Shown: piece after piece, positions 41,458 to 60,347 of the stretch
Layout of the letters: every line of letters begins with the position of its first letter
How positions within the stretch are numbered: position 1 is the stretch's first letter
Assembly (NCBI RefSeq): GCF_021261325.1
Contig: NZ_JAJSBI010000009.1
Location: forward strand, 124,001-188,000
Source of the DNA: Streptomyces guryensis
GTDB taxonomy: Bacteria > Actinomycetota > Actinomycetes > Streptomycetales > Streptomycetaceae
Direction: 5' to 3'
Length of the DNA: 64,000 bases
Made by a program: the position numbers and the translations under genes
The notes under the pieces: generated by a model
Database searches by the model: none
What the model was told of the DNA's origin: nothing
The model's input: the letters and a program-made list of their open reading frames with translations, nothing else

Positions 41458-43146
41458 TCACCCGCCTCCCGACCGGTCCGGGACGCGCTGCTGAATCGCC
41501 CGGGCGGCCAGGGTGCGATGACAGATCTTGCCGGTAGGGCCGAGGGGCATCTCCTCGACCACCAGGAGGAGTTCGGGGAGTTTGCGGCGGGCCAGGCCGC
41601 GGTTCAGCAGGTGGGTGGTGAGGTCGGACAGGGTGGGGGCGGGGGCGCCGGGTGCCGTGCGGAGGCAGGCGCACACGCGTTCGCCGAAGGCCGGGTCGGG
41701 TACCGGAACGCAGACCGCCTCGGCCACCGCTGGATGGCTGCCGAGTTCACGTTCGACCTCGGCGAGGCTGATGTTGAGGCCGCCGCGGATCACGATGCGC
41801 TTGAGCCGTCCCAGGACGTGCAGCCGTCCGTGCTCGTCCAGCCGGCCGAGGTCGCCGGTGCGTACCCAGCCGTCCGACGTGCGGTAAAGGGCGTCCAGTT
41901 CCGGCGCGTTGACGTAGCACATCGGTGTCATGGGGCCTCTGGCCTCGATCTGGCCGGTGTGCCCGGTGGTCAGGGGTGTGCCGTCGGGGCCGGTGATCCG
42001 CACGCGGGCGACCGTGGGGTCGGGGGTGCCGACGCTGTCGCCGGGCGGGAGGTTCTCCCTCGCGGTGTGGCAGTTCACGCCGTCCGAGGAGCCGTAGACG
42101 CTCACCACCGGCCGGGCGAACCGCCTGAGCCACGCGTCAGCGGTCGCTGCGGGCAGCGCCGCGCCGCTGGAGACGACGACACGCAGCGACGAGGTGTCCT
42201 CGTCGGGCCGGGGTGGGAGGTCGGCAAGCCGGCGGAGCATCGTGGGCACCGCGAAGAGGTGGGTGGGGCGGTGCTCGGCTACCAGCCGCAGCGCGCCCTC
42301 CGCGTCGAACCCCGACTGCATGATCAGAGTGCCGCCGAGGGCGGCGAGGGTGACGGGCGTGCCGAGGGAGCCGAAGGAGGAAGCAAGCGGGACGAGGACG
42401 AGGTGACGGGGCGCCACCGAGGAGTCCGGGTGCAGCGCCCGGACGTAGCGGGCCCTGCCGCCGGCCAGGGCGTGATGGCTGTAGGCGACCATCTTCGGCT
42501 CGGCCTCGGTACCCGAGGACACCAGGATGCGGGCGGGGCCGTACGGATCGGCCGACCGGTGCCACCGGCCGTGCCGGGCCGTGGGATGCGGGGCGTGCAG
42601 CCCCTGGGTCCGTCCCCCGCCGGGGCCGGGTACGAACACGGTGCGGAGGTGGGGAAGACCCACGACGACCCGCGCCTGAGGCGCCCCGGTGAGGACGGCA
42701 CCGCGGGCCCGTGAGCGGGCGAGCAGCGCCCGCAGGTCGTGGTCGTCGCCGCCCGGAGGGAGCGGGAGGGCCACCGCGCCGATCGCGTAAACGGCGAGTT
42801 CCGCGGCGACGGCGTCGCGTCCGTTGGGCAGCCGCAGCGCGACCAGGTCCCCGGCCCTGAGCCCTGCTTGTTCGAACACGTCGGCGATGCGGCGCACCTC
42901 GATATCGAGGGCCGCATAGGACAGCACCCCGGCGTCGTCCACCAGCGCCTCACGGTCCGGGTGTTCCTGGACATGGGCGGTGAACAGGCTGTACAGGTCG
43001 GTGTCCGGGCACAAGCCGGCCGCCACCCAGGCCCGTCGCCGGTCGCGGGGCACGTGGTCGGGGAAGGGGACTCCGGCGCGTGAGGTCCACACCGGTTGCT
43101 CGGTACCCGTCGTACCCGTCGTCTCCGGCGTGGTGGGGGCTGTCAT
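41458..43146 (-). CDS. Acyl-CoA/acyl-AMP ligase (ANL family), cluster gene 1
   Basis: 562 aa adenylate-forming enzyme that activates a carboxylic acid with ATP and probably loads CoA. Motifs: VSSGTEAEPKMVAYSH (P-loop-like A3), VYGSSDGVN (A5), YRTSDGWVRTGDLGRL (A7), RLKRIVIRGGLNISLAEVE (A8) and the C-terminal PTGKICHRTLA with the catalytic lysine. The acid is not predictable. Start ATG 43146 overlaps the preceding CoA-transferase stop by four nt. Last gene of the leftward operon. Confidence 0.9.
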   Translation of the reverse strand: MTAPTTPETTGTTGTEQPVWTSRAGVPFPDHVPRDRRRAWVAAGLCPDTDLYSLFTAHVQEHPDREALVDDAGVLSYAALDIEVRRIADVFEQAGLRAGDLVALRLPNGRDAVAAELAVYAIGAVALPLPPGGDDHDLRALLARSRARGAVLTGAPQARVVVGLPHLRTVFVPGPGGGRTQGLHAPHPTARHGRWHRSADPYGPARILVSSGTEAEPKMVAYSHHALAGGRARYVRALHPDSSVAPRHLVLVPLASSFGSLGTPVTLAALGGTLIMQSGFDAEGALRLVAEHRPTHLFAVPTMLRRLADLPPRPDEDTSSLRVVVSSGAALPAATADAWLRRFARPVVSVYGSSDGVNCHTARENLPPGDSVGTPDPTVARVRITGPDGTPLTTGHTGQIEARGPMTPMCYVNAPELDALYRTSDGWVRTGDLGRLDEHGRLHVLGRLKRIVIRGGLNISLAEVERELGSHPAVAEAVCVPVPDPAFGERVCACLRTAPGAPAPTLSDLTTHLLNRGLARRKLPELLLVVEEMPLGPTGKICHRTLAARAIQQRVPDRSGGG

Positions 43147-44945
43147 GCGAACTCCCACGGTGTGTACGGGCGGGCGTACCCGTTGGCAGGGTCCGGCGGC
43201 GCGACGGCCGTCTGGAAGGCGGCGTCGTGGTGCAGGTCGGACAGCTCGGTCCGCACGGGTGTCGCCGTCAGCCCTGCCTCGGCCAGTCGCACCCGCCACT
43301 CCTCGGTGGTACGGCGGGCGAAGCGGGCCGTGACGTCCTGCGCGGACGCGGTGTCGGCGCCGTCCAGGAGGCGGCGCACGGCGTCGGGGCGTTGCCGGGC
43401 ACCGGGGCCGAGGTACAGGTGGCCGTCCGCCGTGCGCAGCGGCCGGTCCAGTGGTGTCCAGCGGACCCGCTGCGCGGGACGGGGGACCAGCGCGCCCGCG
43501 GAGAGCAGACTGGAGTGGACCTGGCTGCCCTGGTGGGTCGCCTCGCGGACCGCCAGCGCGGTCAGCACGCCCTGGGCGCACACCAGCCCGCCGAGCACGT
43601 CGGTGAGGGTCATCAGGGACGGGGCCGGGGGTTCGTCGGCCGGTCGTAGCGCGGCTGCGAGTCCGCTGTGCACCTGGGCGAGGTAGTCGGTGCCCACCGG
43701 GGGCCGGTCACCGAAGGTGTCGCCGAAGCCGGATGCCCAGGCGTACACCAGAGCGGACCTACCGGGCGGCAGGTCGGAGGCGGCCAGACCGAGACGGGAG
43801 GCTTTCCCGGGGGCCCAGTTGTGCAGGAACACGTCGGCATCGGCGGTCAGGGTGCGGATGGTGCGGCGGCCGTGCGCGGTGGTGAGGTCGGCCTCGATCA
43901 CCGGCTTGCCCGCGTTGAGTGCCAGGAACCGGGCCGAGCACTCTCCCGCCAGCGGGGGGAGCCAGCGCATCGGGTCGCCGCCGGGCGGCTCGATCCGTAC
44001 GACGTCAGCGCCCAGCATCCGCAGGATGTGCCCGGCGAGCGGGCCCTGCACTCTACGGGTGGACTCCACGACGCGAATCCCGGTCAGCGGCAGGGCGGCA
44101 TCGCGGGCCGGGCGCGGGGAGGGGAACCCGACGGCGCTGTCCGCGTGCGGCCCACGGCCCCGCGCCGGTTCCGGCCAGGGAGCCAGTTCCCAGGGTTCGG
44201 GGCGGACGGCGGGGGCCGGGTCGGAACGTACGACGAGGAGGCTGACCCCGCTGTGGTGTGCGGCGGCACGCAGATCCGGCAGCGTGCAACGGTGTGCGGC
44301 CTGCCGCAGCGCGTCGGGCAACGGACAGACAGCGGTGGCGAACCGTTGCTGGAAGGGAAGCCAGCCGCGGCCCGCGACGGCGGGCGCCACACCGAGCCGG
44401 ACCCAGAACTCCCGCCAGGCGTCGGGGTCGAGGGTCTCGATCTCCACCCGGACACCGTCGGACGTGACCAGGGTCGCCGGGCCGCCCGCCTGCCTCGCGG
44501 AGTCGGGCAGGAATGGGAGTTCGGGCGGTCCACCGCTCCCCCCGGCCGTCGCGGCGGCCAGGTACTGGCCGACCGCCAGCAGCGCTCCCTGAGCCACCGA
44601 GCTCCGCACCTCGCACAGGTCCAGCCCGCGAGCTCGCCCGACGCGCAGGGCGGTGGCGCCCAGAGCGGCGAGCACCCCTGCCACGACCGACGCGTAGTCG
44701 ACTGCCAGCGGGGCGGGCCCGCCCGTGGCCCGGCCGTGGACGTGCATCAGACCGCAGGCGGCCTGTACGGCGCGCTCGTCCGGCAGCTCCGTCGCGACGG
44801 GGCCCGCCCACTCGATGCGGAACCGCACCGGGTCCGGGCCGGCGCCGGCCCCCTCCGGCAGGGCCTGTGCGGTGTGCCGCAGCAGACGCTCCGCGATCGT
44901 GGTGGCAACGGCCGGCCGGGCCTCGGCCCGCAGTCCCGGCGTCAC
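43143..44945 (-). CDS. Double-length CaiB/BaiF-type CoA-transferase
   Basis: 600 aa. The C-terminal half is a typical class III CoA-transferase: LPLTGIRVVESTRRVQGPLAGHILRMLGADVVRIEPPGGD, a LALNAGKPVIEADL strand and GTDYLAQVHSGLAAA, whose Asp corresponds to the catalytic aspartate. The N-terminal half (residues about 1-300) resembles the distal part of another CaiB domain (HGRATGGPAPLAVDYASVVAGVLAAL, then RVGRARGLDLCEVRSSVAQGALL) but has no catalytic signature, so it is degenerate. GTG 44945 overlaps the upstream methyltransferase stop (GTGA). May move CoA between acids or act on a carrier-free thioester. Confidence 0.85.
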   Translation of the reverse strand: MTPGLRAEARPAVATTIAERLLRHTAQALPEGAGAGPDPVRFRIEWAGPVATELPDERAVQAACGLMHVHGRATGGPAPLAVDYASVVAGVLAALGATALRVGRARGLDLCEVRSSVAQGALLAVGQYLAAATAGGSGGPPELPFLPDSARQAGGPATLVTSDGVRVEIETLDPDAWREFWVRLGVAPAVAGRGWLPFQQRFATAVCPLPDALRQAAHRCTLPDLRAAAHHSGVSLLVVRSDPAPAVRPEPWELAPWPEPARGRGPHADSAVGFPSPRPARDAALPLTGIRVVESTRRVQGPLAGHILRMLGADVVRIEPPGGDPMRWLPPLAGECSARFLALNAGKPVIEADLTTAHGRRTIRTLTADADVFLHNWAPGKASRLGLAASDLPPGRSALVYAWASGFGDTFGDRPPVGTDYLAQVHSGLAAALRPADEPPAPSLMTLTDVLGGLVCAQGVLTALAVREATHQGSQVHSSLLSAGALVPRPAQRVRWTPLDRPLRTADGHLYLGPGARQRPDAVRRLLDGADTASAQDVTARFARRTTEEWRVRLAEAGLTATPVRTELSDLHHDAAFQTAVAPPDPANGYARPYTPWEFA

Positions 44946-45805
44946 GGTCGCTCCTCGGCGGGCCGACGGCCCTGTACGGAGTAGAAGACGCTGGAGGCGG
45001 CACGGAAGGACGGGTCCCGCATCAGATCCCGCACCCGGTCCAGGTCGTCGTCGGTCATGCCCTGCTCCTTGAGCCGGTCCCGGAGGTTGCGGGTGTGGTT
45101 CAGCTGGAGCCCCAGGCCGGGGTCCTTCGCGTGTCGTACGCCGATGTGGAGGTGGACGTCGAGGGCGGTCAGTCCGGCCGCCCGCATGGCGGCCGGTACT
45201 TTCCGTGCCCAGCACGGGTCGCCGCCCGCGGCGCGCAGCGCCGCCGTCTTGGCCTCGAGGAACCGGACGTACAGTGCCTCGGCCTGTGGGTTCGGGGTGA
45301 GCAGTGGCGGTTCGTAGGAGGCGTCGATCTCGTCGATGTGCAACATGCCACCGGGTTTGAGGGCGCGCACCAGCTTGTGCAGGACGATGTCCCGGAAGGG
45401 CACGTGCTGCAGGATCAGGCGGGCCACCACCAGGTCGTAGGCTGCCTCCGGGAGCGGGTCGCGGGACACGTCGAGGGCAGCGACCTCAAGGCCCGGGCCG
45501 GGTACCAGGTCGCGGGGGTCGAGGTCTGTGGCGAGCACGGAGCCGCCCGGTGCGACCCGGTCCGCCAGCCAGCGCGCGATGCTGCCACCGCCGGCACCGA
45601 CCTCCAGACAGCGCCAGCCCGGACCGGCACCGGCGGCGGCAAGCCGGGGCAGGGTCACCGGGTCGTACGCGGCAGCCAGGCAGCGGTGCTGGTCGCGGCT
45701 GTGCGCGGTGCCGTTGCCGAAGACCGCGCGGGCACCTTCCTGGGCGTAGGACGGCTCCCGGGCGCAGGACGGCTGAGACACGGTATCGGGAGACGGCTGG
45801 GACAC
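44942..45805 (-). CDS. SAM-dependent methyltransferase, cluster gene
   Basis: 287 aa class I methyltransferase. Motif I CLEVGAGGGSIARWLADRV, acidic LATDLDPRDL, then VVARLILQHVPFRDIVLHKLVRALKPGGMLHIDEID. The closest familiar pattern is the methyltransferase-12/UbiE-like group that methylates O or C of small metabolites. Coupled to the CoA-transferase (GTGA) and 54 nt downstream of the second acyl ligase. Confidence 0.88.
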   Translation of the reverse strand: MSQPSPDTVSQPSCAREPSYAQEGARAVFGNGTAHSRDQHRCLAAAYDPVTLPRLAAAGAGPGWRCLEVGAGGGSIARWLADRVAPGGSVLATDLDPRDLVPGPGLEVAALDVSRDPLPEAAYDLVVARLILQHVPFRDIVLHKLVRALKPGGMLHIDEIDASYEPPLLTPNPQAEALYVRFLEAKTAALRAAGGDPCWARKVPAAMRAAGLTALDVHLHIGVRHAKDPGLGLQLNHTRNLRDRLKEQGMTDDDLDRVRDLMRDPSFRAASSVFYSVQGRRPAEERP

Positions 45806-45859
45806 GGCAGGACTCCACTCGTCATGTGGTGGCTCGTCAGGTCGTCACGTGGTGGCTTG

Positions 45860-47437
45860 TCAGGTCCAGCGGCCGGTCCCGGTGACCGCGGTGCCGGTGA
45901 GGTGCCGGGCCAGCGCGGCGCGGCGAACCTTGCCGGTGCCGGTGCGAGGGACTTCGTCCCAGGTCAGGACCGCGGGCTGACGCATCGGCGGCAGCCCCTG
46001 GACGGCCTGTTTCCAGGCATCCGGATCCAGCCGGCCGTCGGCGGTGACCACGGCCGGCAGCGGGTCGCCGTCCGGGGCGCCGACGATCACGCATTCCAGG
46101 GCCTGTGGCAGCCGCTGCTCGAGCAGGTCCTCGGTCCGCAGACAGCTCATTCCGGGCAGGGTGTCGGCCTCGCGGTCCAGGACGCTGACGCTGCCGTCGC
46201 GGTGGTGCACCCCCACATCACCCGAGGACCACCAGTCGCCGACGCGCTTGGCCTCCCAGCGTTCCTGTTCACCGACGTAGCCCAGGGCGAGGGCCGGTGT
46301 GCGGATCAGGAGCAGACCCGGGCGGCCGCGCGGCACCGGGTACAGCGTGTCCGGGTCCACCACGCGCAGCCGGGTCCGGCCCGGCACCGGACGTCCCAGC
46401 CGACGCGTCGTGGACGCGGCGTCCGGTGCGAGCGCGGAGCTCCGCGTGTGGAAGCGGAACGTCAGCGGTCCGGTCTCGGTCTGGCCCCAGCCCTGCATCC
46501 ACAGCGGGTGGGCTCGGCGGCTGGCGGCCAGATACGCGCGCAGCGCGGGCGGGTGCATCGCGTCGTAGGTGCTGATGTACAGGCGGACGCGCCGGAACGG
46601 GTTGTCCAGCCGTGCGGTGAGCGGCCGCAGCCGGACGTAGGTGGCGGGCAGCGCCTCCATCACGGTCGGCGGGTACGCCCGCAGCAACGGGTCGGCGGTG
46701 TCCGGTTCGTCGCCGGTGAGGACCACGATCCTGGCGGGTGCGAGCGCCGTCACCACCGCCGTCCAGCAGAAGGTGCGCCCGTGTGCGTAGGCGCTGGCGT
46801 TGCACAGGGTGTCGTCCCGGCGCAGGCCGATGCCCGGGTAGCGCACCGCCTCCAGGCGGGCCAGCTTGTGCACGAGTGTCCGCGTGGAGTGGACCACGAG
46901 TTTGGGCACGCCGGTCGTCCCCGAGGTGTGGTGGATGACCAAGGCCTCGTCCTCGTGGCGTCGTACCGGCGCACCGGGGCCGGAGGCGTCCAGTGCGGCG
47001 AGGTGGGCCGCCCCGGGCACGGCGGTGTCGACGGTGACACAGAGGGGGGCCGATGCGGCCGCGTCCCGGCAGCGGGCCAGCACTGCGGAGGTGGTGATCA
47101 GTGCGGCCGGGCGCAGCCGACGCAACAGGGTGAGGAGGTCCGGGGTGTCCAGTCGGGCGGAGAGCTGGGCGGGCACGGAGCCGATACGGACGGCGGCGCA
47201 GGCGAGCAGGTCGTAGTCCCAGTGGTTGTCCTTCACGATGGCCACGCGGTCCCCGGGCCGGACTCCGGCGTCGGTGAGCCGGGCTGCGGTGGCGCGGACC
47301 AGGGCGGCGAGCTCCGGGACGGTCCACCGGGTGCCCGCCCGCGGGGCGATGTCGAAGGGCCGGTCAAGGTGGAACACGGTCCGGGCGCCGCCCGCCGCCG
47401 CGTCCTCGAACAGGGTGCCCATGTCATTGGGTCGCAC
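45860..47437 (-). CDS. Acyl-CoA/acyl-AMP ligase (ANL family), cluster gene 2
   Basis: 525 aa. Motifs: HHTSGTTGVPKLVVHS (A3), GWGQTETGPLTF (A5), SSGDVGVHHRDG (A7), LDREADTLPGMSCLRTEDLLE (A8 region, less canonical) and RTGTGKVRRAAL (A10 lysine). Only modest likeness to the first ligase, so the two probably activate different acids. Start ATG 47437 overlaps the flavoenzyme gene by 14 nt. Confidence 0.88.
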   Translation of the reverse strand: MRPNDMGTLFEDAAAGGARTVFHLDRPFDIAPRAGTRWTVPELAALVRATAARLTDAGVRPGDRVAIVKDNHWDYDLLACAAVRIGSVPAQLSARLDTPDLLTLLRRLRPAALITTSAVLARCRDAAASAPLCVTVDTAVPGAAHLAALDASGPGAPVRRHEDEALVIHHTSGTTGVPKLVVHSTRTLVHKLARLEAVRYPGIGLRRDDTLCNASAYAHGRTFCWTAVVTALAPARIVVLTGDEPDTADPLLRAYPPTVMEALPATYVRLRPLTARLDNPFRRVRLYISTYDAMHPPALRAYLAASRRAHPLWMQGWGQTETGPLTFRFHTRSSALAPDAASTTRRLGRPVPGRTRLRVVDPDTLYPVPRGRPGLLLIRTPALALGYVGEQERWEAKRVGDWWSSGDVGVHHRDGSVSVLDREADTLPGMSCLRTEDLLEQRLPQALECVIVGAPDGDPLPAVVTADGRLDPDAWKQAVQGLPPMRQPAVLTWDEVPRTGTGKVRRAALARHLTGTAVTGTGRWT

Positions 47438-48794
47438 GGATCTCCTCCGCTTGGTGGGGGCCGGACGACGGGCGCCGCCACAGCCTGCTCAGGACACGGG
47501 ACGCGGCCAGCGCACCCGCCCGGACGGCGCCCTCGGAAGCGGGCCGCAGCATCACCCAGTCGCCGGCGTACTCAACGGCGCGCACCGGGCGGGCCAGGAA
47601 GCCGGGGCGTTCCCGCAGTGCCTGCGGGGTGGCTTCCGGCAGGCCCTGGCGGAAGGCGTGCACGAGGTGGTGGCGGCGGGCACCGGCGAGGCCCGGTACG
47701 TAGCGTTCCGCCGCGTGGGCGAGCACGTCGGCGGCCTCGTCGGGGGAGGCGTCCAGCAATCCGCGGACCCGGCGCGGACCGGCCACGAGGGTGATCAGCC
47801 CGCGGCCCGCGGGGGCCCGGCCGGGGTCCTTGGCGTGGTCGACGACGACACCGGAGAGCACGTCCTCCTCGACGGCAGGGGTGAGCAGGATGTGCACCGG
47901 ACGTCGGGCGGCCGGGGCCAGCGGGCGGTCCAGCAGGTAGCTGACCTTCATCATCGGGGTGAAGGTGCAGGCCGTGACGAACGGTCGCTCGTCGGCGGGG
48001 ACGTCCGGGCGCAGCGCCACCGCTACGGGCGCCGGTACGGCCAGTACAGCGGCCCGCGCCCTGACCTCACCGTCGTCGAACCGCAGGACGGCGTGCTCGC
48101 CCGCGTCGGTGACCTCCCGCACGGCGCGGCCGGTCACGACGTCGGTACCGGCGGCCAGCCGGCGGGCCAGGAAGTCCATGCCGTCCCGGTAGGTACGCCA
48201 GGTGGTGGGGGAGCCGGCCTCCAGCAGCAGGCTCACCAGGGGGGCGGCGGCAGAGCGGGCCGTGTCCCAGCCGAAGAAGCCGCCCGCGACCGGTTGGAGG
48301 AGGTAGTCGTGCAGCTCGGGGTGGTAGCGGGCGGCCGTCTGTCGCACGGTGGCGGCACCGAGCGGAGTGTGCTCGGGGCGGTCGCCGTCGAACCGGGCGC
48401 GGCGGCGTCCGGTCCACGCCGAGAAGACGGCCAGGTCGAGCCGGGCGCGGGCGGACAGGCCGGCGCCGGTGAACACCGCCGTGCTCTCGCCGACGCCGAG
48501 ACGGGCGCGCCCACCACGCCAGACGGCCACCGCACCGCCGACCCGGGGGACGTCCGCCGGGCCGGCGCCCAGTCGGCGCAGCAGCTCCCAGGTGGCACGG
48601 TAGCCACGCGACGCCACCTGCTCGGCTCCGGTGTCCACCGTCCAGCCCTCGTGGCGCAGACTGCGCATCCGGCCGCCCACCTGCGGCAGAAGCTCGTAGA
48701 CCCGCACCGACAGCCCGGCGCGCCGCAGTTCGTGGGCGGCGGTCAGTCCGGCGACGCCCGCGCCGACGACCGCGACGTCGACCTCGGGCGTCAT
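47424..48794 (-). CDS. FAD-dependent oxidoreductase, protoporphyrinogen-oxidase/amine-oxidase-like
   Basis: 456 aa flavoprotein. N-terminal dinucleotide site VAVVGAGVAGLTAAHELRRAG with the following GGRMRSL motif, a mid-region FLARRLAAGTDVVTGRAV, and a C-terminal AGDWVMLRPASEGAVRAGALAA that closes the FAD site. This pattern is shared by protoporphyrinogen oxidases, phytoene desaturases and amine oxidases, so the substrate could be an amine or a prenyl/terpenoid C-C bond. The ATGA overlap with the UbiA gene couples the two. Confidence 0.85.
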   Translation of the reverse strand: MTPEVDVAVVGAGVAGLTAAHELRRAGLSVRVYELLPQVGGRMRSLRHEGWTVDTGAEQVASRGYRATWELLRRLGAGPADVPRVGGAVAVWRGGRARLGVGESTAVFTGAGLSARARLDLAVFSAWTGRRRARFDGDRPEHTPLGAATVRQTAARYHPELHDYLLQPVAGGFFGWDTARSAAAPLVSLLLEAGSPTTWRTYRDGMDFLARRLAAGTDVVTGRAVREVTDAGEHAVLRFDDGEVRARAAVLAVPAPVAVALRPDVPADERPFVTACTFTPMMKVSYLLDRPLAPAARRPVHILLTPAVEEDVLSGVVVDHAKDPGRAPAGRGLITLVAGPRRVRGLLDASPDEAADVLAHAAERYVPGLAGARRHHLVHAFRQGLPEATPQALRERPGFLARPVRAVEYAGDWVMLRPASEGAVRAGALAASRVLSRLWRRPSSGPHQAEEIRATQ

Positions 48795-49765: not shown

Positions 49766-49861
49766 GGGTGACCTCCTGGGTTTCTCGGCGTCGGGCGGGA
49801 GGGCCGCGCGCGGTCCGTGTGGCCGGACGGCCCCGGCGGCTGTCGTACGTGCTGTCGTACG

Positions 49862-51004: not shown

Positions 51005-52194
51005 ACGGTCGCCCTCCCTTCGGCGCGGAAGGAGCGGACGGTGTCACACACGCGGTCCAAATCGCCGGGGCTGAGATCGGGGTGGAGCGGCAGGGCCACG
51101 GCATGCCCGGCCGCCGCCTCGGCATGGGGGAACTCGCCCGTCCGGTGGCACAGGTGGGCGAAGGCGGGCTGGTGGGGCAGCGGCAGCGGGTAGTAGACCT
51201 CGGTGCCGATACCGTGCCGGTCGAGATGGACGACGAGGGCGTCCCGGTCCTCGGTCTCGATGAGGTAGACGTAGAACACGTCGCGGGCGCCCGGACCCTC
51301 GGCGGTGACGCGCGGCAGGCGCCTGATGCCCGGCACGTCCCGCAGGCGGGCGGTGTAGGCGTCCGCCAGGCCGGCCCGGTACGCGATCTGCTTCTCCAGG
51401 AGGGGTAGTTTGGCGAGCAGGACGGCCGCCTGGATGTCGTCCATCTTGCTGTTCACGCCCGGCCATGCGCTGTCGGTCGAGATCGCCGGAAAGTCGTTCA
51501 GCGTGCGGCCGGTCCTGCCGTGGTGGCGCAGGGCCGCGACGGTGTCCGCCACCTCCCCGTCGTCGGTGAGCACGGCTCCCGCGTCCCCGAGCGCCCCGAG
51601 CGTCTTGGAGGGGAAGAAGGACAGCACCCCTCCGGCGCCGTGCAGGCCCGCGTGCACACCGCGTCGGCGCATGCCGATCGCCTCGGCGCTGTCCTCGACC
51701 ACCGTCAGACCATGCCGCCGTGCGACTTCGGTGACGGCCTCCAGGTCGGCCATGGTGTGGAACAGATGCACCGGCATCACGAACCGGCTGCGGGGAGTGA
51801 CGGCTGCCTCCAGGGCCGCCGGATCCATCGCGTAGGTCTCCGGGGCGATGTCCACGAACTGGGGCCGGCCGCCTGCCAGAACGACGGCCGACGCGGTGGC
51901 GAAGAACGAGTAGGCGGGGACCAGGACGCCATCACCGGGACGCAGCCCACAGGCGCGCAGCAGCAGCACGAGTGCGTCGGTGCCGCTATTGACTCCGACG
52001 ACGTACCGTGCGCCGGTGTATTCCGCGAGCGCCGACTCGAGCTGTCCGACCTGTTTTCCGTGAGAGAACTTACCGCAGTGGAAAACCTCCTCCAATGACT
52101 TTTCGATGGAAGGCCACAGCAGTTCGAAGGTTTTGGCCTGGGAAAAGAAGGGAACCGCCTGCGCCGTTCCTTCTGTGACCGATAATTCGCTCAA
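51001..52194 (-). CDS. DegT/DnrJ/EryC1/StrS aminotransferase, copy 1 (TTA codon)
   Basis: 397 aa. Motifs: NSGTDALVLLLRA, VVEDSAEAIG and the PLP lysine Lys197 in SFFPSKTLGALGDAG. Start TTG 52194 is supported by GGGAGA about 6 nt upstream; the frame stays open above it but has no conserved sequence. The fourth codon is TTA, the rare leucine codon read by the bldA tRNA. First gene of the leftward operon, so the whole operon could depend on bldA. Divergent from the first Gfo/Idh/MocA gene over about 206 nt. Confidence 0.9.
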   Translation of the reverse strand: MSELSVTEGTAQAVPFFSQAKTFELLWPSIEKSLEEVFHCGKFSHGKQVGQLESALAEYTGARYVVGVNSGTDALVLLLRACGLRPGDGVLVPAYSFFATASAVVLAGGRPQFVDIAPETYAMDPAALEAAVTPRSRFVMPVHLFHTMADLEAVTEVARRHGLTVVEDSAEAIGMRRRGVHAGLHGAGGVLSFFPSKTLGALGDAGAVLTDDGEVADTVAALRHHGRTGRTLNDFPAISTDSAWPGVNSKMDDIQAAVLLAKLPLLEKQIAYRAGLADAYTARLRDVPGIRRLPRVTAEGPGARDVFYVYLIETEDRDALVVHLDRHGIGTEVYYPLPLPHQPAFAHLCHRTGEFPHAEAAAGHAVALPLHPDLSPGDLDRVCDTVRSFRAEGRATV

Positions 52195-52295
52195 ATTTCG
52201 TCTCCCGCCCCGTGGAGTCGTACACCCTGTTGAGTCATGCTGAATATCAACGCTAATCGGACTCGTCGGCCGCGGAGAATGGGAAAGGGGCATCT

Positions 52296-52357
52296 TCACA
52301 CGTTGTGAGTAAAGGCATTCCGAATGTCTTGACCCAATCCCGGCGGGGCGGCAATAG
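52296..52357 (+). promoter_or_regulatory. Predicted promoter and palindrome of the rightward cluster operon
   Basis: TTGACC (52329-52334), 17-nt spacer and CAATAG (52352-52357) form a plausible sigma-70 promoter 43 nt before the GTG. Just upstream lies the palindrome TCACA-CGT-TGTGA (52296-52308), a possible operator between the two divergent operons. No regulator gene is encoded nearby. Confidence 0.45.
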
Positions 52358-52400
52358 TCCTGCGTCGCAACGGAGTTGGCGCACGGACTAGGAGGCCCAT

Positions 52401-53474
52401 GTGCTGCAGCCCCTCGTGGTCGGGCTCGGCCGGTCCGGATCCGGACTGCACTTGAAAACGCTGGCCCGGCTGGCCGGGCGGACCGGGAGCACGGGCGATC
52501 CACTGGTCGCCCTGCCCGCGATCGGATGCGACCCGCGCGCCGGCGTTCTGCGGCTCTCGTCCACCCCCGGAGAGGTGACCGTCGTCACCACGCTGGATCA
52601 GGCCCTGGACCACGTGGACCCCGCCACCGCGGTGGTGCACGTGTGCACGCCGCCCCGGTCGAGACACGCCCTGATCGAGGCACTCGCCGGGCACGGGTTT
52701 CGCCGGATGATCGTGGAGAAACCCCTGGCCGCGTCCCGCGACGAACTGGACGCCCTGATCCGGCTCCGCGACGAGGCGGGCCTCGCCCTGGTGGCCATGG
52801 CCCACTGGACCGGCTCCCGGCTCGCGGACCGGCTGCGCCGGCTCGTCCGCGGCGGCCGGCTCGGCCCGCTGCGCCGCATCACCGTGGACCAGCACAAGCC
52901 GCGCTTCCTGCGGTCCCTGACCACCGACGGGCACCAGAGCGCCCTCGACGTGGAGATCCCCCACTCCCTGGCTCTGGTCCTCGACCTGGCCGGCCCCGCC
53001 GAACTGCGCGCCGCGCACTGCTGGGACCTGCGCTGCGAAGACCGGGAGCTGCCCCGTATGGGCGGTGCCCACCTGGAACTGGAGCACAGCACCCGGGTGT
53101 CCACGCTGCTGCGCTCCGACCTGGGTGCACCCGTGCGACAGCGCAGCGTCGTATGCGAGTTCGACGGCGGGACGGCCACAGGCCACTTCCCCCTCAGCGA
53201 GGACGACGACCACGCCCAGCTCGTCATCACCCCCGTCGGCGGCGATGCGCCCGCGGCGCCGACCGGAGCCCCCGCCACGGACGGCGGGCCCGGGCCCGGC
53301 CACCAGGTCTTCCGGGACGACGCCCTGACCGACTTCCTGGAAGGCGCCTATCGCGGCTTTCTCTCCGGAGCGCCGGACGCCGGCTTCTCGCTCGCCTGCC
53401 AGACCGCCCGCCTGCTGTGCGCGGCCCGGGAACACCGCGCCACCGCGACATCCGCCCGCACCGGGAGCCGCTGA
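52401..53474 (+). CDS. Gfo/Idh/MocA-family oxidoreductase, copy 1
   Basis: 357 aa, N-terminal NAD(P)-binding Rossmann domain (PLVVGLGRSGSGLHLKTL) and C-terminal substrate domain. The VEKPLA motif with the conserved lysine is at about 110-116. Oxidises or reduces a sugar or cyclitol hydroxyl. GTG 52401 has GGAGG 5 nt upstream. A long disordered Gly/Pro insert follows the Rossmann part (about residues 275-300). First gene of the rightward operon, followed after one nt by the isomerase gene. Confidence 0.88.
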   Translation: MLQPLVVGLGRSGSGLHLKTLARLAGRTGSTGDPLVALPAIGCDPRAGVLRLSSTPGEVTVVTTLDQALDHVDPATAVVHVCTPPRSRHALIEALAGHGFRRMIVEKPLAASRDELDALIRLRDEAGLALVAMAHWTGSRLADRLRRLVRGGRLGPLRRITVDQHKPRFLRSLTTDGHQSALDVEIPHSLALVLDLAGPAELRAAHCWDLRCEDRELPRMGGAHLELEHSTRVSTLLRSDLGAPVRQRSVVCEFDGGTATGHFPLSEDDDHAQLVITPVGGDAPAAPTGAPATDGGPGPGHQVFRDDALTDFLEGAYRGFLSGAPDAGFSLACQTARLLCAAREHRATATSARTGSR

Positions 53475-53475
53475 G

Positions 53476-54381
53476 ATGCCCCGACTCGGGACCGCCCGGC
53501 ACCGCGCCGCAGGATTCGGGCCCCTGGCCGGGATCGGCGACGAGGCCGCGCCCGGTACCGACGGCCAGCTGGCCGCCCTGCGGCAGCTGGGCTGGAACGC
53601 CATCGAACTGCGCACGGTCGACGGCACCGCACTCGCCGATCTCTCCGCGGCCGCCTTCAACACCCTGACCCGGCGGCTGGCGGACGCCGGCGTCACGGTG
53701 ATCGCCGTGGCCTCCAGGATCGGCAACTGGTCCCGTCCCGTCACCGGTGACCTCGCCGTGGACCTCGCCGAACTGGACGTCCTGGCCGAGCGGTGCGCCG
53801 CCCTGGGCTGCCGTCTCGTACGGATCATGTCGTACCCCAACGACGGCCTGACGGAGACCGAGTGGGCCGACCGCGTCCTCGCCCGCACCGCCGTCCTGGC
53901 GGACCGCGCCGAGCGGGCGGGCCTGGTGCTGGTGCACGAGAACTGCGCGGGCTGGGCCGGGGACCGGGCCGACCGAGCGCTCCGACTGCTGCGTGGCGTC
54001 GGCAACCCGGCCCTGCGCCTGCTGTTCGACACCGGCAACGGCGTTCCGTACGGCTACCGCGCGCCGGACATGCTTGAGGACCTCGCCCCCTACGTGGCCC
54101 ACGTCCACATCAAGGACGCCGTCCGCACCCCGGACGGCACCACCGCCTACACCCTGCCCGGTGAGGGCGGTGCCGAGGTGGCCGCATGCCTGCGGATCCT
54201 GGCCTCCCACGGCTACACCGGCGCCCTCTCCCTCGAACCACACCTCGCCGTGCGCCCCCACGACGGCCTGGTCCGGGCCGGTGAAGACGCCGGTGCCCTG
54301 TTCGTACGGGCCGGACAGGCGCTCACCCGGCTGCTGCGGACCGTGGAGGCGGCACCCGCCCACCCGGACGGTACGGCGTGA
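53476..54381 (+). CDS. Sugar-phosphate isomerase/epimerase-like TIM-barrel protein
   Basis: 301 aa AP-endonuclease-2-type barrel (IolE/IolI, UxaE-like). Metal ligands are plausibly the Glu in VLVHENCAGW, the Asp in LLFDTGNGVPYG, the His/Asp in VAHVHIKDAV and the Glu in ALSLEPHL. Probably interconverts a keto-sugar or inosose. Begins one nt after the Gfo/Idh stop and overlaps the M20 gene by the GTGA arrangement. Confidence 0.88.
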   Translation: MPRLGTARHRAAGFGPLAGIGDEAAPGTDGQLAALRQLGWNAIELRTVDGTALADLSAAAFNTLTRRLADAGVTVIAVASRIGNWSRPVTGDLAVDLAELDVLAERCAALGCRLVRIMSYPNDGLTETEWADRVLARTAVLADRAERAGLVLVHENCAGWAGDRADRALRLLRGVGNPALRLLFDTGNGVPYGYRAPDMLEDLAPYVAHVHIKDAVRTPDGTTAYTLPGEGGAEVAACLRILASHGYTGALSLEPHLAVRPHDGLVRAGEDAGALFVRAGQALTRLLRTVEAAPAHPDGTA

Positions 54382-55673
54382 CCGTACTGTTCACCGACCA
54401 GTACCAGAAGCTGCTGCTGGACCTCCTGCGCCTGCCCAGCGTCAACCCTCTGGAGGCCGGGCCCGACGACCCGCCGTCCCGACTGCCCGACCTCCTCGAC
54501 CAGTACGCGGCAGCCGCCGCCGACGCGGGGTTGCGCACCGTACGGCTCACGGCTGCGCCCGCCGCATGTCTGGACCGGCCCGGGGTTCCGTCCACCGTCC
54601 GGGCCGCCGCGCGCGATCCGCGCTTCCTTGTGGACCAGCCCAGCCTGCTGCTGCGGCTGGGCCCCGAGCGTCCCCGCGTGGACACGGTGATGTTCAACGT
54701 CCATCTGGACACCGTCGCCGGACACGTCCAGCCCGCCTTCGACGGAAGCAGGTTCACCGGCCGGGGGGCCGTCGACGCCAAGGGACCCGCCGTCGCCCTG
54801 CTCGCGGGGCTGCGGGCCGCCGCGACCCACCCCGCCGTCGGACGGGACGTCACCGTCCTGCTCCAGGCCGTCGCCGGGGAGGAAGGCGGCGCCCTGGGCA
54901 CCTACGGCACCCGCCCCCTGCTGGAAGCCGGCCATCACGGACGCCTCAACGTGTTCTGCGAGCCGACCGGTCTGCGCGCGCTGCCCCGGGCGACCGCCTC
55001 CATGACCGCCCGGATCACCGTCACCGGTGAGGACGCCGTGGACGACCATCCGGACGCCGGACACAACGCCACCGTGCTGCTCGGCTTCCTCGCCCAGCAC
55101 CTCGCCGCCCGCCTGGACGGGGCCGTACCCGGCACACGGGTGTGCCTGGCCGGACTGCACACCGGCCGCACGCACAACCGCGTCCACGGCACCGGCACCC
55201 TGCTGGTGAACCTGTCCTACGGCACCACCGCGGACGGCAGTCACCTCAAGGCCGCTGTGACCCGGCACGTCACCGACGGTCTGCGCGGCTTCAGCGAACT
55301 CTTCGCCTCCACCCGGGAGTTCGCCCGCACGGCACGGGACGCGGCACGCATCACCCTGCTCGGCTGGGACAAGGATGGACTGCCCGCGCTGGACAACCGC
55401 GACCCCTGGGCCGAGGCGCTCCTGGCCCGCGCGGGAGCCCGGCCGGCGGACGGCGATCCCGGTTTCACCTGCGACGCCATCTGGGCCGCCGGTCTGGACG
55501 ACGCCTTCACCACCGTGCTCGGCCCCGGTGACCTCGCCGTCAACCACGCCCACGCGCCCGGGGAGTTCGTCGACCTCGCCGACCTGGAGGACTTCGCGGG
55601 CGTCGTCCACCGCCTCGTCACCCTCTTCGCTGAAGACCACCGACCCGCCCCTCCCGTAAGGAACCGCGTATGA
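54378..55673 (+). CDS. M20-family metallopeptidase/deacylase
   Basis: 431 aa dizinc hydrolase of the ArgE/DapE/CPG2 group. Metal-site segments: NVHLDTVAG (HxD), GRGAVDAKGPAVALLAG, AVAGEEGGALGTYG (catalytic EE), and the late NHAHAPGEFVDLADL (His). The dimerisation domain is present between. Relatives remove acyl groups from amino acids or amino sugars, so a protecting-group removal step is plausible here. GTG start within GTGA of the preceding stop. Confidence 0.88.
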   Translation: MTVLFTDQYQKLLLDLLRLPSVNPLEAGPDDPPSRLPDLLDQYAAAAADAGLRTVRLTAAPAACLDRPGVPSTVRAAARDPRFLVDQPSLLLRLGPERPRVDTVMFNVHLDTVAGHVQPAFDGSRFTGRGAVDAKGPAVALLAGLRAAATHPAVGRDVTVLLQAVAGEEGGALGTYGTRPLLEAGHHGRLNVFCEPTGLRALPRATASMTARITVTGEDAVDDHPDAGHNATVLLGFLAQHLAARLDGAVPGTRVCLAGLHTGRTHNRVHGTGTLLVNLSYGTTADGSHLKAAVTRHVTDGLRGFSELFASTREFARTARDAARITLLGWDKDGLPALDNRDPWAEALLARAGARPADGDPGFTCDAIWAAGLDDAFTTVLGPGDLAVNHAHAPGEFVDLADLEDFAGVVHRLVTLFAEDHRPAPPVRNRV

Positions 55674-56803
55674 CGGTGTCCACTGCCTCCTCGGCAACGT
55701 CCGACCACGCATCCGTCCTTGTCGGCCACGCCGAGCTGCATGCCGCGCTGACCGGCCTGTTCACCGGCCACGGCATTCCGGCACCCAGGGCCCGGCTCGC
55801 CGCCGACGCCCTGTGCCACGGTGACCTTGCCGGCCTCGACTCGCACGGAGTGTTCAACCTCACCCGGCTCTACCTGCCGCTGCTGGAGTCGGGGCGCTGC
55901 GACCCCCGTGCCGAACCGCGGACCGTCACCGACCTGGGCGCCTGCGCGGTCGTCGACGCCCGCCGCGCCCTGGGCCTGTGGGCCGCGGCCGAAGCCATGG
56001 ACGATGCCGTCGCCCGGGCCCGCCGGCATGGCGTCGGCCTGGTGTCCGTGCGCGGCGCCACCCATCTCGGGTGCGCCGGCTTCCACGCCGTCCGCGCCGC
56101 GCACGCCGGGATGATCGGCGTCGTCGCGAGCAATTGCGGCGGCCAGCGCATCGCACGCCCGCCGGGAGGCGCGGTGGCCATGCTCGGCACCAACCCGTTG
56201 AGCGTCGCCGCCCCCGCTCTCGACGGCCACCCCTTCCTGCTGGACATGAGCACCACCGTCGCGCCGACCGGACGGGTCCGCGTGGCCGCCCGCCGGGGCG
56301 CTCCGGTGCCCGCCGGCTGGCTCGAGGACGCGGCGGGCAACCCGGTGACCGACCCGTCCGCCTTCGACCGCGGCGAGGCGTTCCTGCGCTGGCTGGGCGG
56401 TACGGCCGAGACCGGCGTCCACAAGGGCTACGGACTCGGTATCGCGGTGGAACTGCTGGCCGCGGTGGTGTCCGGGGCGGCCGTGGGACCCTCGCCCGCC
56501 GCTCTGGAAGGGGACGGGCGGCCGCACGGACGGGACGACGGCATCGGCTTCTTCCTCCTCGCGATCGCCCCGGAGGTGCTGAGTCCGGGCACGGACGTCG
56601 TCGGCTCGACCCGGTCCCTGTTCGGCGCGCTCGTCGACTGCCCGCCGGTGCCCGGCGGAGCACCGGTGCGTTACCCGGGGTGGCGGGAGGCCGAACTCGC
56701 CGCCGAGCGCCGCCGGGACGGCATCCCGCTGCCGGAGCACCTGTACCGGGAACTGGCGGACCTGGGCCTCCCCGTCGGTCCTGGCTCCGGGAACCCGCGA
56801 TGA
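55670..56803 (+). CDS. Ldh2-family (malate/L-lactate/ureidoglycolate-type) oxidoreductase
   Basis: 377 aa, the NAD(P)-dependent dehydrogenase family of YlbC/YiaK/DpkA type. Characteristic: HGDLAGLDSHGVFNLTRLY, GATHLGCAGFHAV and the C-terminal ETGVHKGYGLGIAVELL. Members reduce 2-oxoacids or cyclic imines such as piperideine-2-carboxylate. Overlaps the M20 stop (ATGA) and the next gene (ATGA). Confidence 0.88.
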   Translation: MTVSTASSATSDHASVLVGHAELHAALTGLFTGHGIPAPRARLAADALCHGDLAGLDSHGVFNLTRLYLPLLESGRCDPRAEPRTVTDLGACAVVDARRALGLWAAAEAMDDAVARARRHGVGLVSVRGATHLGCAGFHAVRAAHAGMIGVVASNCGGQRIARPPGGAVAMLGTNPLSVAAPALDGHPFLLDMSTTVAPTGRVRVAARRGAPVPAGWLEDAAGNPVTDPSAFDRGEAFLRWLGGTAETGVHKGYGLGIAVELLAAVVSGAAVGPSPAALEGDGRPHGRDDGIGFFLLAIAPEVLSPGTDVVGSTRSLFGALVDCPPVPGGAPVRYPGWREAELAAERRRDGIPLPEHLYRELADLGLPVGPGSGNPR

Positions 56804-57750
56804 CCCGGCCCCTGCGGCTGGGCGTCGTCGGCCTCGGCGCCATCTCCCCCTACTACCTGGCCGCCGCCGAACGACTGCCCGGCTGGGAGCTGTCGGCCGT
56901 GTGCGACACGCGCGACCAGGCCCTGGAGCAGTACCGGGGCCGGGCGGCCCGCTTCCGCGACCACAGGACACTGCTGACCCAGGCACGGCCGGACGCCCTG
57001 GTCGTGGCCGTACCCAACCACGTGCACCTCCCGGTCTGCCGAGAGGCGCTGGCCGCCGGTGTTCCCGTGTGCGTCGAAAAACCCCTCGCCCTCACCGCCG
57101 CCGAGGGACGCCTGCTGGTGGATCTCGCGCGGCGTTGCGGCGTCCCTCTGCTGACGGCCTTCCATCGCCGCTACAACACGGCCGTCCGCGCGCTGGCGCA
57201 CCAGACGGCAGGCCGGAAGATCGTCGCGGTTCGCGTGCGCTACCTGGAACGCATCGAGGAACACCTCGGCGGCGAGGACTGGTACCTCGACCCCGCCCGC
57301 TGCGGCGGCGGCTGTGTGGCCGACAACGGCCCGAACGCCCTTGACCTGGTGCGGATGCTGCTCGGCGACGTCACCGTCACCGGCTGCGAGATCCACCGCG
57401 ACGGCTCCGGCGTCGACCGGCAGGCAGTGATCCGCCTCAGCAGCCCCACCGGCGCCACCGCAACGGTGGAACTGGACTGGTCGTACCCGGGAGAACGCAA
57501 GGACGTCGAGGCCGAACTGGCCGACGGGGAGGTCCTGCACGCCGACATGCTGGCCGGCCACCCCGGCTTCAAGGCGTCGCTGTGGCACGAGTACGAGGCG
57601 ATCCTCACCGAGTTCGCCTCCCTCGCCGGCCGGTGCGCCCCGGTCGGGTCGGGAGCGCACGGCGGCCTGCCCGCACTGGAGTTGGTCGAGGCGGCCTACC
57701 GCTGCGCCCGGCCCGCGTCCTGTGCGCCGCCGGCGGAGGCGGACCGGTGA
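56800..57750 (+). CDS. Gfo/Idh/MocA-family oxidoreductase, copy 2
   Basis: 316 aa. Rossmann motif LGVVGLGAISPYYLAAAE, VEKPLALTAAEG, then AFHRRYN, and a C-terminal domain with GGGCVADNGPNALDLVRMLLGDV (the His/Asp dyad region). Only low likeness to copy 1, so a different step is expected. Start ATG 56800 sits in an ATGA overlap and lies far inside a longer open frame that is not used. Confidence 0.9.
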   Translation: MTRPLRLGVVGLGAISPYYLAAAERLPGWELSAVCDTRDQALEQYRGRAARFRDHRTLLTQARPDALVVAVPNHVHLPVCREALAAGVPVCVEKPLALTAAEGRLLVDLARRCGVPLLTAFHRRYNTAVRALAHQTAGRKIVAVRVRYLERIEEHLGGEDWYLDPARCGGGCVADNGPNALDLVRMLLGDVTVTGCEIHRDGSGVDRQAVIRLSSPTGATATVELDWSYPGERKDVEAELADGEVLHADMLAGHPGFKASLWHEYEAILTEFASLAGRCAPVGSGAHGGLPALELVEAAYRCARPASCAPPAEADR

Positions 57751-58181
57751 ACCCGGCGGAGGACGGCCCGAAACGTGTGGTGCGCGCAAGCCTGGTCAAA
57801 GTGCTCACGCATCACCGCACGGACCGGGGGATGCGGTTGGAGGAACACGCGGCGCGCTGCGTACGGCGGGACGAGGTGCACGAACTCGTCAGCACCGACC
57901 AATGGGACCCGCGCCCCGGCGCCCGGATCGACCGGGTGGGCTTCCTCGGCTTCGCGGAACTGGTGTGCGGCGGCGTGATCGACCGTGGTGACCTGGTGAG
58001 CATCGACGGCACGCCGGTCGGCACGGTCCTCGGCTTCGACGCCTGCCACCTTCCGAACCACTACAACATCCTGATCCACACAGCCAGTCCGGTCAGTGGC
58101 CGGGACCTGCGGCTGCGGCCCGAGGCCCGTGTCACCTTCGTCCAGGGCCCGGATGAAGGGGGCCTGGGGCCGAAGGACTGA
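57747..58181 (+). CDS. Small cluster protein (DUF6917-like)
   Basis: 144 aa soluble protein, last gene of the rightward operon. Visible strings are VKVLTHHRTDRGMRLEEHAARC, RDEVHELVSTDQWDPRPGARIDRVGF and GTVLGFDACHLPNHYNILI, with several His/Asp/Cys residues that could bind metal. I think it belongs to DUF6917, but that is from memory. Start GTG 57747 in GTGA overlap with the preceding stop, so translation is coupled. The stop lies inside the following terminator stem-loop. Function unknown. Confidence 0.7.
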   Translation: MNPAEDGPKRVVRASLVKVLTHHRTDRGMRLEEHAARCVRRDEVHELVSTDQWDPRPGARIDRVGFLGFAELVCGGVIDRGDLVSIDGTPVGTVLGFDACHLPNHYNILIHTASPVSGRDLRLRPEARVTFVQGPDEGGLGPKD

Positions 58182-58204
58182 CGCCTTCGTCCAGGCCCCC
58201 TTCA
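58154..58204 (+). terminator. Strong hairpin overlapping the end of the last cluster gene
   Basis: A 14-bp perfect stem (58154-58167 with 58191-58204) plus an inner CGAAGG/CCTTCG stem. The stop codon TGA is in the loop region, so the terminator begins inside the coding sequence. Confidence 0.8.
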
Positions 58205-58246
58205 TGGGGTTCATTGGGGCTCATGCGGCTTCATGCGGCTTCATGG

Positions 58247-58282
58247 GGTGATCCCCCTGAGCGGATACTCAGGGGGATCACC
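58247..58282. terminator. Second, perfect 15-bp hairpin
   Basis: GGTGATCCCCCTGAG (58247-58261), loop CGGATA, then the exact complement (58268-58282). It lies between the rightward operon and the convergent EF-hand gene and can serve both. TCATGCGGCT-type direct repeats fill the space between the two hairpins. Confidence 0.85.
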
Positions 58283-58300
58283 GGGCCTGGGTCCGGCAGG

Positions 58301-58834: not shown

Positions 58835-59038
58835 GTGGTCTCCTTCTCGGTTCGTCTCGGAGATTTGACGGACTGCGGCCCCTGGTAAGGGCCGCAACCG
58901 CGCAGGGCGCTGCCCCTGCGCGGGTCTGTGGGGCCGGCGGGACGCCGGCAGGAAGGTGCCGACCGCAGTCGGCGAGGCGAGGCGTCGGCTGGGGCGGCGA
59001 AAGGGGCCGCAGCCAGTCCCGGAGACGCGGCGGGGCTG

Positions 59039-60298: not shown

Positions 60299-60347
60299 GT
60301 GCAGCAGTTCTCCTGGGTGTGCGTGGGAGGGCGAAAGAAACGGTGGT

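Follow-up and report, generated by a model that had tools for sequence, protein, structure and literature searches.

A sixteen-gene actinobacterial cluster combining sugar-amine, acyl and prenyl enzyme families with a calerythrin orthologue

Gene content and layout of the cluster

We analyzed a window of 64,000 nucleotides from Streptomyces guryensis (contig NZ_JAJSBI010000009.1, positions 124,001 to 188,000, forward strand), whose genome comprises 10.5 Mb of high G+C content, and focused on a gene cluster at window positions 41458–60382. The cluster consists of 16 genes: two divergent arms and an adjoining pair that encodes a calerythrin orthologue (EFh) and a nucleotide-sugar 6-dehydrogenase (UGD) (Table 1). 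The existence of this 16-gene genetic unit is firm, to the point of near certainty. The minus arm is ordered ANL2, CaiB, MT, ANL1, FAD, UbiA, DegT2, DegT1 and the plus arm Gfo1, TIM, M20, Ldh2, Gfo2, DUF6917. An initial annotation, made from the DNA letters and their open reading frames (ORFs), had placed 14 genes here between 41458 and 58181. These borders proved too narrow, since the EFh and UGD genes, which extend to 60382, belong to the same conserved unit.

Codon-position analysis together with Pfam and NCBIfam domain scans verified the 14 genes of the two arms with the families and positions first proposed for them, including the double CaiB coenzyme A (CoA)-transferase, which contains two CoA_transf_3 stretches; several proteins were scanned as the longest ORF and hence carry some extra upstream residues. 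DegT1 may start at 52194 or at an upstream codon such as 52293. The tight gene overlaps described in the initial annotation were also recovered: with the chosen starts, 8 of the 12 junctions within the arms are 4-base overlaps and one is a 14-base overlap, the others being gaps of 1, 54 and 96 bases. In agreement with the original description, the same scans detected no polyketide synthase (PKS), terpene synthase, glycosyltransferase, transporter or regulator domains in the 14 proteins, and the sole match resembling a nonribosomal peptide synthetase (NRPS) was that of ANL1 to an amino-acid adenylation model, at 109.8 bits against a cut-off of 317.4. No PKS, NRPS or terpene synthase hallmark domain was found by Pfam and NCBIfam when all 16 proteins were considered.

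All 16 genes are under purifying selection, with ratios of non-synonymous to synonymous substitution (dN/dS) of 0.17–0.37 relative to locus L012 and of 0.19–0.68 relative to L025, the EF-hand gene being highest in the latter comparison. The left border is flanked by genes resembling a sulfonate-type ABC transporter (window 38748–40423), a family that was not among the conserved neighbours of the related loci.

Table 1 Features of the cluster (window coordinates; the last column counts tblastn detections among 72 related loci and gives lower bounds)
Feature	Coordinates	Strand	Assignment	Supporting match	Loci
ANL2	41458..43146	-	acyl-CoA/acyl-adenylate ligase, AMP-binding + AMP-binding_C	PF00501 188.7 bits; PF13193	50/72
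CaiB	43143..44945	-	double-domain family III CoA-transferase	PF02515 196 bits, 2 stretches	52/72
MT	44942..45805	-	class I S-adenosylmethionine methyltransferase	PF08241 48.5 bits	69/72
ANL1	45860..47437	-	second adenylate-forming ligase	PF00501 183.9 bits	71/72
FAD	47424..48794	-	flavin amine-oxidase-fold enzyme	PF01593 128.3 bits	71/72
UbiA	48791..49765	-	UbiA-superfamily membrane transferase	PF01040 46.8 bits, cut-off 34.2	
DegT2	49862..51004	-	pyridoxal phosphate (PLP) aminotransferase, SFVQVKT lysine motif	PF01041 296.6 bits	69/72
DegT1	51001..52194	-	PLP aminotransferase, SFFPSK lysine motif	PF01041 341.4 bits	69/72
Divergent intergenic region between arms	52195..52400	.		one sigma-70-like match	
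Gfo1	52401..53474	+	divergent Gfo/Idh/MocA oxidoreductase	PF01408 30 bits	68/72
TIM	53476..54381	+	sugar isomerase/epimerase barrel	PF01261 107.5 bits	66/72
M20	54378..55673	+	M20 metallo-amidohydrolase	PF01546 53.7 bits	67/72
Ldh2	55670..56803	+	Ldh2-family NAD(P) oxidoreductase	PF02615 330.2 bits	57/72
Gfo2	56800..57750	+	Gfo/Idh/MocA oxidoreductase	PF01408 75 bits; PF22725	50/72
DUF6917	57747..58181	+	all-beta protein	PF21891 177 bits	47/72
EFh (outside earlier borders)	58301..58897	-	calerythrin orthologue, EF-hand	PDB 1nya E=2.9e-60	48/72
UGD (outside earlier borders)	59039..60382	-	nucleotide-sugar 6-dehydrogenase, N-acetylhexosamine (HexNAc)-type	TIGR03026 362 bits, cut-off 189.8	44/72

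Conservation across actinobacterial genera

The 72 related loci were obtained from one UbiA scan of named genomes; each covers up to ~21 kb and ends at most 10 kb from UbiA. They come from Streptomyces, Kitasatospora, Saccharopolyspora, Saccharothrix, Lentzea, Actinophytocola, Streptosporangium and Catenuloplanes, with one strain filed as Nocardia. Both arms occur together in 68 of the 72, counted as UbiA-retrieved loci that also hold Gfo1 from the opposite arm, a recurrence far beyond chance. The view taken in the initial annotation, that this is one co-conserved accessory biosynthetic unit for sugar-amine, acyl and prenyl chemistry, is thus supported by the search for joint copies of both operons. 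All 16 genes were detected in 27 of 63 nearly whole loci and in 28 of 72 overall.

Seven genes at first apparently absent from L034 and L082 lie on the other side and were seen in extended flanks, whereas the lack of Gfo1, TIM, M20 and Gfo2 in L028, and of CaiB or ANL2 beside MT in L048, L054 and L057, is real or likely. In Streptosporangium L071 and Catenuloplanes L079 both arms run in the same direction. Among 28 loci and the window, the distance matrices of the other 15 proteins track that of UbiA (r 0.82–0.95, permutation p 0.001 each), a correlation that shared genome ancestry alone could produce.

In genome G003 (L100:18641-18890), UbiA, FAD and most of ANL1 are apparently lost between DegT2 and MT, although an assembly error is possible, and a UbiA-FAD-ANL1 trio lies on another contig of this genome (L143). 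A second, diverged copy of the cluster, partly read, occurs in genome G530 (L142:7679-19997) and includes separate calerythrin and UGD genes. A small ORF family (~150 amino acids, AhpD-like by eye; L079:692-1153) occurs near the cluster in 9 of the 72 loci, 5 of them from Saccharopolyspora.

The EFh–UGD pair and the calerythrin association

The EFh and UGD genes were found by clustering ORFs outside the 14 genes in the related loci; with the crude ORF caller used, no other neighbour family was present in more than 9 loci. A PaaX-type regulator, an MFS gene and other genes each stand next to single loci and were not counted as members. Linkage is kept where the genes have been relocated inside the cluster, as seen for EFh in L037, L046, L055 and L079 and for UGD in L037, L055 and L079. 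Some clusters contain two calerythrin-like genes in tandem (L055:5762-7515; L093:8449-10227).

EFh is similar in size to calerythrin and matches it over the full length, its residues 24–198 aligning to residues 2–176 of 1nya. Three canonical EF-hand loops, at residues 39, 134 and 168, are predicted to bind Ca2+. Across 95 homologous stretches, some of them cut or repeated, we counted three loops in 79, fewer in 12 and four in 4. UGD retains a GGHCIPVDP sequence, which we take to be the catalytic-cysteine motif; the strict pattern matches 34 of 42, with many loci end-cut in this and the other strict-pattern counts given below. It scored 224 and 222 bits to UDP-ManNAc dehydrogenase models, under their cut-offs, and lower to UDP-glucose dehydrogenase models (153 bits for AglM and 90.5 for TuaD), and its closest PDB chains are 4r16 (198 bits) and Cap5O. 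These matches suggest that UGD is, at family level, a UDP-HexNAc 6-dehydrogenase.

EF-hand proteins are common, being detected at E<=0.001 in 79 of 120 genomes of Streptomyces and relatives, and we therefore counted only strong calerythrin matches (E<=1e-24); of 392 Streptomyces genomes, 33 have one. A close UbiA (E<=1e-110) is present in 26 genomes, every one of which carries such a match, compared with 7 of the other 366 (Fisher p=1.5e-34). This UbiA cut-off was picked after inspecting the table; at the search's own cut-off (E<=1e-40) the counts are 29 of 44 against 4 of 348 (p=1.3e-28). UbiA and calerythrin lie on one contig in 24 of the 26 genomes, 1.6–13.8 kb apart, and on separate contigs in G708 and G762. 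The seven calerythrin genomes without a close UbiA include G003, which holds the cluster minus UbiA (L100), and G812, in which a partial UbiA match lies ~13.5 kb away. The link extends to Saccharopolyspora, the genus of the original calerythrin host, S. erythraea, where a calerythrin orthologue (E<=1e-25) is present in 12 of 22 genomes and all 12 genes adjoin UGD, ANL2, DUF6917 or UbiA; of four loci read further, three contain most of the cluster and the fourth is cut at a contig end.

Two observations count against this association. Calerythrin is missing from 15 of the 18 genomes that have only a distant UbiA, and five Streptomyces genomes hold a calerythrin relative with no cluster genes nearby (L135–L139), the sole exception being a generic ANL match at L137; one of the five, G674, is readable only as a 7.2-kb contig. 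These relatives show 32–41% identity, a range overlapping that of cluster members, and one of the genes is located on a plasmid beside hypothetical genes. The link between calerythrin and the cluster is the most specific, most testable and most surprising novelty of this work. In the available excerpt of a published account, which names no gene cluster, calerythrin is presented as the first true EF-hand protein from bacteria and seems to do no more than buffer Ca2+ (PMC10574481). EFh differs from the protein described there in its setting within a biosynthetic cluster.

Proteins of the two arms

UbiA is a member of the UbiA prenyltransferase superfamily by sequence, as indicated by a Pfam score above the cut-off and two Asp-rich motifs, DDVTGFRDGSD and NTNDVAGD (alignment of 14); 63 of 72 loci fit a strict pattern for the first of these. 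Strict motif patterns were also matched by ANL1 in 64 of 71, FAD in 65 of 71 and ANL2 in 41 of 50. The second half of CaiB contains a ‘TDVLGGL’ motif (alignment of 11; strict pattern 37 of 52), presumably the candidate catalytic Asp motif. The closest NCBIfam model for FAD is HpnE, well under its cut-off (81 vs 283 bits). A diazotase assignment for ANL1 was not adopted, its match to AvaA6 reaching 91.6 bits vs a cut-off of 975.

The PLP lysine was recovered in 73 of 76 DegT1 sequences, three being unclear. For DegT2, a strict lysine pattern missed 32 of 70 loci, most of which are recovered by a looser pattern that fits 72 of 76 sequences and has no match in 4. The top PDB matches of DegT2 are sugar or cyclitol aminotransferases, and both DegT proteins give good scores with chains named WbpE, QdtB and 2oga, the last of which we take to be DesV, clearly above ArnB. 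We assume that these matching chains are sugar-3-aminotransferases.

In the plus arm, Gfo1 keeps an EKP motif and a D-H pair (alignment A2 of 18), and TIM shows a conserved E-D-H-E pattern (alignment of 15), which we take to be a metal-site pattern. DUF6917 retains a GFDxCHxPNHYN stretch within its group in alignments, and its AlphaFold2 model has a predicted local distance difference test score (pLDDT) of 91. Sequence comparison of DUF6917 with the PDB gave nothing meaningful (best E 0.37), and its model had no Foldseek match at E<=0.001. Similarity to translation-factor barrels (VIA-align Z <=4.2) was too weak for use. DUF6917 was found in 9 of 120 relatives, the genome of the window included, in 1 of 396 genomes sampled from the whole phylum, namely the window's own, and in 2 of 121 genomes from the family to which Catenuloplanes L079 belongs, with the EF-hand gene adjoining in both. 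At L094:11613-13955 and L102:20001-22328 DUF6917 is fused to 1-deoxyxylulose-5-phosphate synthase (dxs), and it adjoins other thiamine-diphosphate enzymes in Thermomicrobium L103 and Saccharopolyspora spinosa L122.

Modules and sister clusters

Parts of the cluster recur with other partners. In Rhizobium sp. T136, plasmid pT136b (L108:9338-21579) carries Gfo1-DegT1-DegT2-TIM-M20-Ldh2-Gfo2 in one run at 32–46% identity, with ectB and genes for a histidine-methyltransferase-like protein, an MFS transporter and an ATP-grasp protein nearby. A Streptomyces locus (L099:1028-15531) combines UGD, trpC, trpB, trpA, two DegT genes, TIM, M20, Ldh2, Gfo2, DUF6917 and a trpE-like gene, with no Gfo1 in the run; the interleaved tryptophan genes suggest an indole-containing sister product. 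Because the Rhizobium run and L099 both group the DegT genes with those of the plus arm, the two DegT genes belong with that arm, and the operon borders are therefore not the module borders.

A second set of loci points to isoprenoids. At L094, ispH and a polyprenyl synthase gene accompany Gfo1, TIM, M20, Ldh2, Gfo2 and the DUF6917-dxs fusion; in L095 and L098 the sugar block is joined by UGD, the two DegT genes, dxs and a UbiA of 43–44% identity; and a plasmid of Streptomyces sp. NBC_00490 carries a DegT-DegT-MT-UbiA-ANL-UGD run and, ~31 kb on, Gfo1 to DUF6917-dxs. Five sister clusters (the NBC_00490 plasmid, L095, L097, L098 and L115) share DegT1, DegT2, UGD, Gfo1, TIM, M20, Ldh2, Gfo2 and DUF6917 with the cluster described here, and all five have an MT homologue (32–36%). 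UbiA was seen in L095, L098 and NBC_00490, and ANL1 homologues in NBC_00490 and L115. They differ from it in having dxs beside or fused to DUF6917 (L095, L098 and NBC_00490) and an MMPL transporter gene (NBC_00490 and L115). Within the sequence read, 20 kb for all but one of the five, neither CaiB nor calerythrin was matched, and a close ANL2 was likewise absent. Conversely, the 20 kb read at L143 and at L144 contain a UbiA, FAD and ANL1 trio but no sugar block; in the former (L143:8331-16354) the trio adjoins a lantibiotic-dehydratase N-domain protein.

The 16-gene cluster is thus an assembly of sugar-amine, prenyl/redox and CoA (CaiB, ANL2) modules. According to the initial annotation, finding the two operons apart in other genomes would speak against its reading. 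The UbiA-retrieved loci, nearly all of which join both arms, decide this test in favour of the cluster. Part of the objection stands, since much of the plus arm does occur with other partners (L094, L099, NBC_00490), which we read as module reuse rather than independent catabolism.

Proposed pathway and alternative interpretations

Judged from the enzyme families, we propose, with about an even chance of being right, that the 16 genes form a natural-product cluster for an amino-uronate conjugated to isoprenoid and acyl groups. UGD would oxidize C6 of a UDP-N-acetylhexosamine to the uronate, Gfo1 (or Gfo2) could oxidize C3 in a WbpB-like step, TIM would isomerize or epimerize the keto sugar, and DegT1 would aminate it at C3, as WbpE does. 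M20 may then remove the N-acyl group, and Ldh2, Gfo2 and DegT2 could carry out redox and amination once more to yield a poly-amino uronate. UbiA would transfer an isoprenoid, FAD would oxidize and MT methylate, and ANL1, ANL2 and CaiB would activate and transfer acyl groups to be joined to the amino-uronate, all without a PKS, NRPS, terpene synthase or glycosyltransferase. Together, UbiA, ANL1, MT and FAD may recall quinone-type prenyl chemistry. An isoprenoid partner is supported by the related clusters that hold dxs (L094, L095, L098, NBC_00490), ispH and polyprenyl synthase (L094) and UbiA. An amphiphilic amino-uronate conjugate is the probable product, and calerythrin would be an accessory dedicated to the pathway, in the simplest case buffering Ca2+ or acting as a Ca2+-dependent partner.

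The closest parallel is the Wbp pathway to UDP-2,3-diacetamido-uronic acids (WbpA, WbpB, WbpE, WbpD, WbpI), for which the available excerpt of a published study gives the order of WbpA, WbpB and WbpE as 6-oxidation, C3 oxidation and C3 amination (PMC10622841). The cluster likewise combines a 6-dehydrogenase, a Gfo-type oxidoreductase and a DegT aminotransferase, and DegT1, with its PLP lysine, scores 231 bits to WbpE, a likeness at family level only. In contrast to the Wbp system, no N-acetyltransferase (WbpD) or UDP-sugar 2-epimerase (WbpI) domain was found among the 16 proteins and O-antigen genes are absent, whereas TIM, M20, Ldh2, a second DegT, UbiA, ANL, CaiB and EF-hand genes are additional.

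Several results weigh against the amino-uronate proposal. The Gfo1 profile retrieved no PDB chain at E<=1e-8, so that sequence does not establish a WbpB-like role for it, and Gfo2 reached only 57 bits with 3q2k, which we take to be WlbA and which was not its top match. The chain 7b0d, named glutamine--scyllo-inositol transaminase, scores at least as high as WbpE for DegT1 and above it for DegT2; 4qgr, a chain of unnamed function, scores as well as the presumed sugar-3-aminotransferase chains for the DegT enzymes and slightly above WbpE for DegT1; and perosamine synthetase comes close for DegT2 (180 vs 183 bits). Because of the 7b0d and perosamine synthetase scores, the C3 assignment of the DegT enzymes is soft. 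A glycosyltransferase or another enzyme clearly suited to condensation is missing from the cluster, UGD and DegT are both absent from 50 kb at L094, and no UGD was found in the stretch read of the Rhizobium block.

That last observation bears on the best of the alternatives, in which the product of the sugar block is not a nucleotide-bound amino sugar but a free amino acid derived from a sugar and ligated as a building block. This amino acid would combine the uronate carboxyl with a keto group that has been transaminated, and Ldh2 and M20 would act on alpha-keto or N-acyl amino-acid intermediates. The same seven genes stand on pT136b beside an ectB-type transaminase, a histidine-methyltransferase-like gene and an ATP-grasp gene, most of the block lies among trpC, trpB, trpA and a trpE-like gene in L099, and amino and keto acids are typical substrates of the M20 and Ldh2 families. 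However, UGD accompanies the block in most actinobacterial clusters read, L099 included, which points to nucleotide sugars, and both DegT enzymes resemble nucleotide-sugar aminotransferases. We consider this alternative unlikely.

More doubtful is a role in making an envelope glycolipid or a cell-wall modification rather than a released metabolite. A membrane-bound UbiA, a uronate dehydrogenase and the lack of an exporter among the 16 genes would fit such a role, but the cluster has no glycosyltransferase, flippase or polymer gene and its distribution is patchy (26 of 392 Streptomyces genomes, judged by close UbiA).

An aminocyclitol core derived from inositol is a shade less probable again. 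Here a Gfo protein would act as inositol dehydrogenase, TIM as an inosose-type isomerase and the DegT proteins as inosose aminotransferases, as in the hygromycin A aminocyclitol pathway, which uses a Gfo/Idh dehydrogenase and DegT-type amination of the ring. The cluster shares these two families with that pathway; it differs in lacking inositol synthesis genes and in having a uronate dehydrogenase, UbiA and CoA chemistry. The inositol 2-dehydrogenase model gave Gfo2 61 bits and the inosose dehydratase model gave TIM 31, both far under the NCBIfam cut-offs, and while 7b0d matches both DegT enzymes about as well as or better than WbpE, WbpE is far ahead of the deoxy-scyllo-inosose aminotransferases (2c7t, 5w70). 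No inositol-phosphate synthase or cyclitol synthase/cyclase was found among the 16 proteins, the rest of the genome not having been searched. Of the amino-sugar or aminocyclitol core with acyl and/or prenyl groups offered in the initial annotation, the sugar-amine, acyl and prenyl chemistry is supported, and the added HexNAc-type UGD shifts the core away from an aminocyclitol and towards an amino-uronate.

It is very improbable that the plus arm is a catabolic operon lying beside a biosynthetic one by chance: the block does occur without the minus arm, and catabolic operons often contain members of the Gfo, TIM, M20 and Ldh families, but the arm is linked to the minus arm in 68/72 loci, has no transporter or regulator of its own here and is found elsewhere also among biosynthetic genes.

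Returning to the amino-uronate proposal, we extend it tentatively, as an idea that is rather less than an even bet: calerythrin may be dedicated to hybrid pathways of an undescribed class, assembled from portable amino-uronate and UbiA-FAD-ANL1 modules and working without a PKS, NRPS, terpene synthase or glycosyltransferase, in which the making or handling of the product would depend on intracellular Ca2+. No description of this cluster appeared among the open-access literature matches listed, and we know of no compound of the named host species that fits it.

Implications

As it contains no hallmark synthase, this pathway, present in many Streptomyces and several rarer actinobacterial genera, may escape routine genome mining. 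Calerythrin gains a fixed metabolic context and, if the proposed involvement is true, would acquire its first specific role. A family of sister clusters, of isoprenoid, tryptophan and Rhizobium types, would likewise open to genome mining. The sugar-amine genes constitute a reusable cassette, ranging from Streptomyces to Rhizobium, whose chemistry, once solved, could serve to predict many products.

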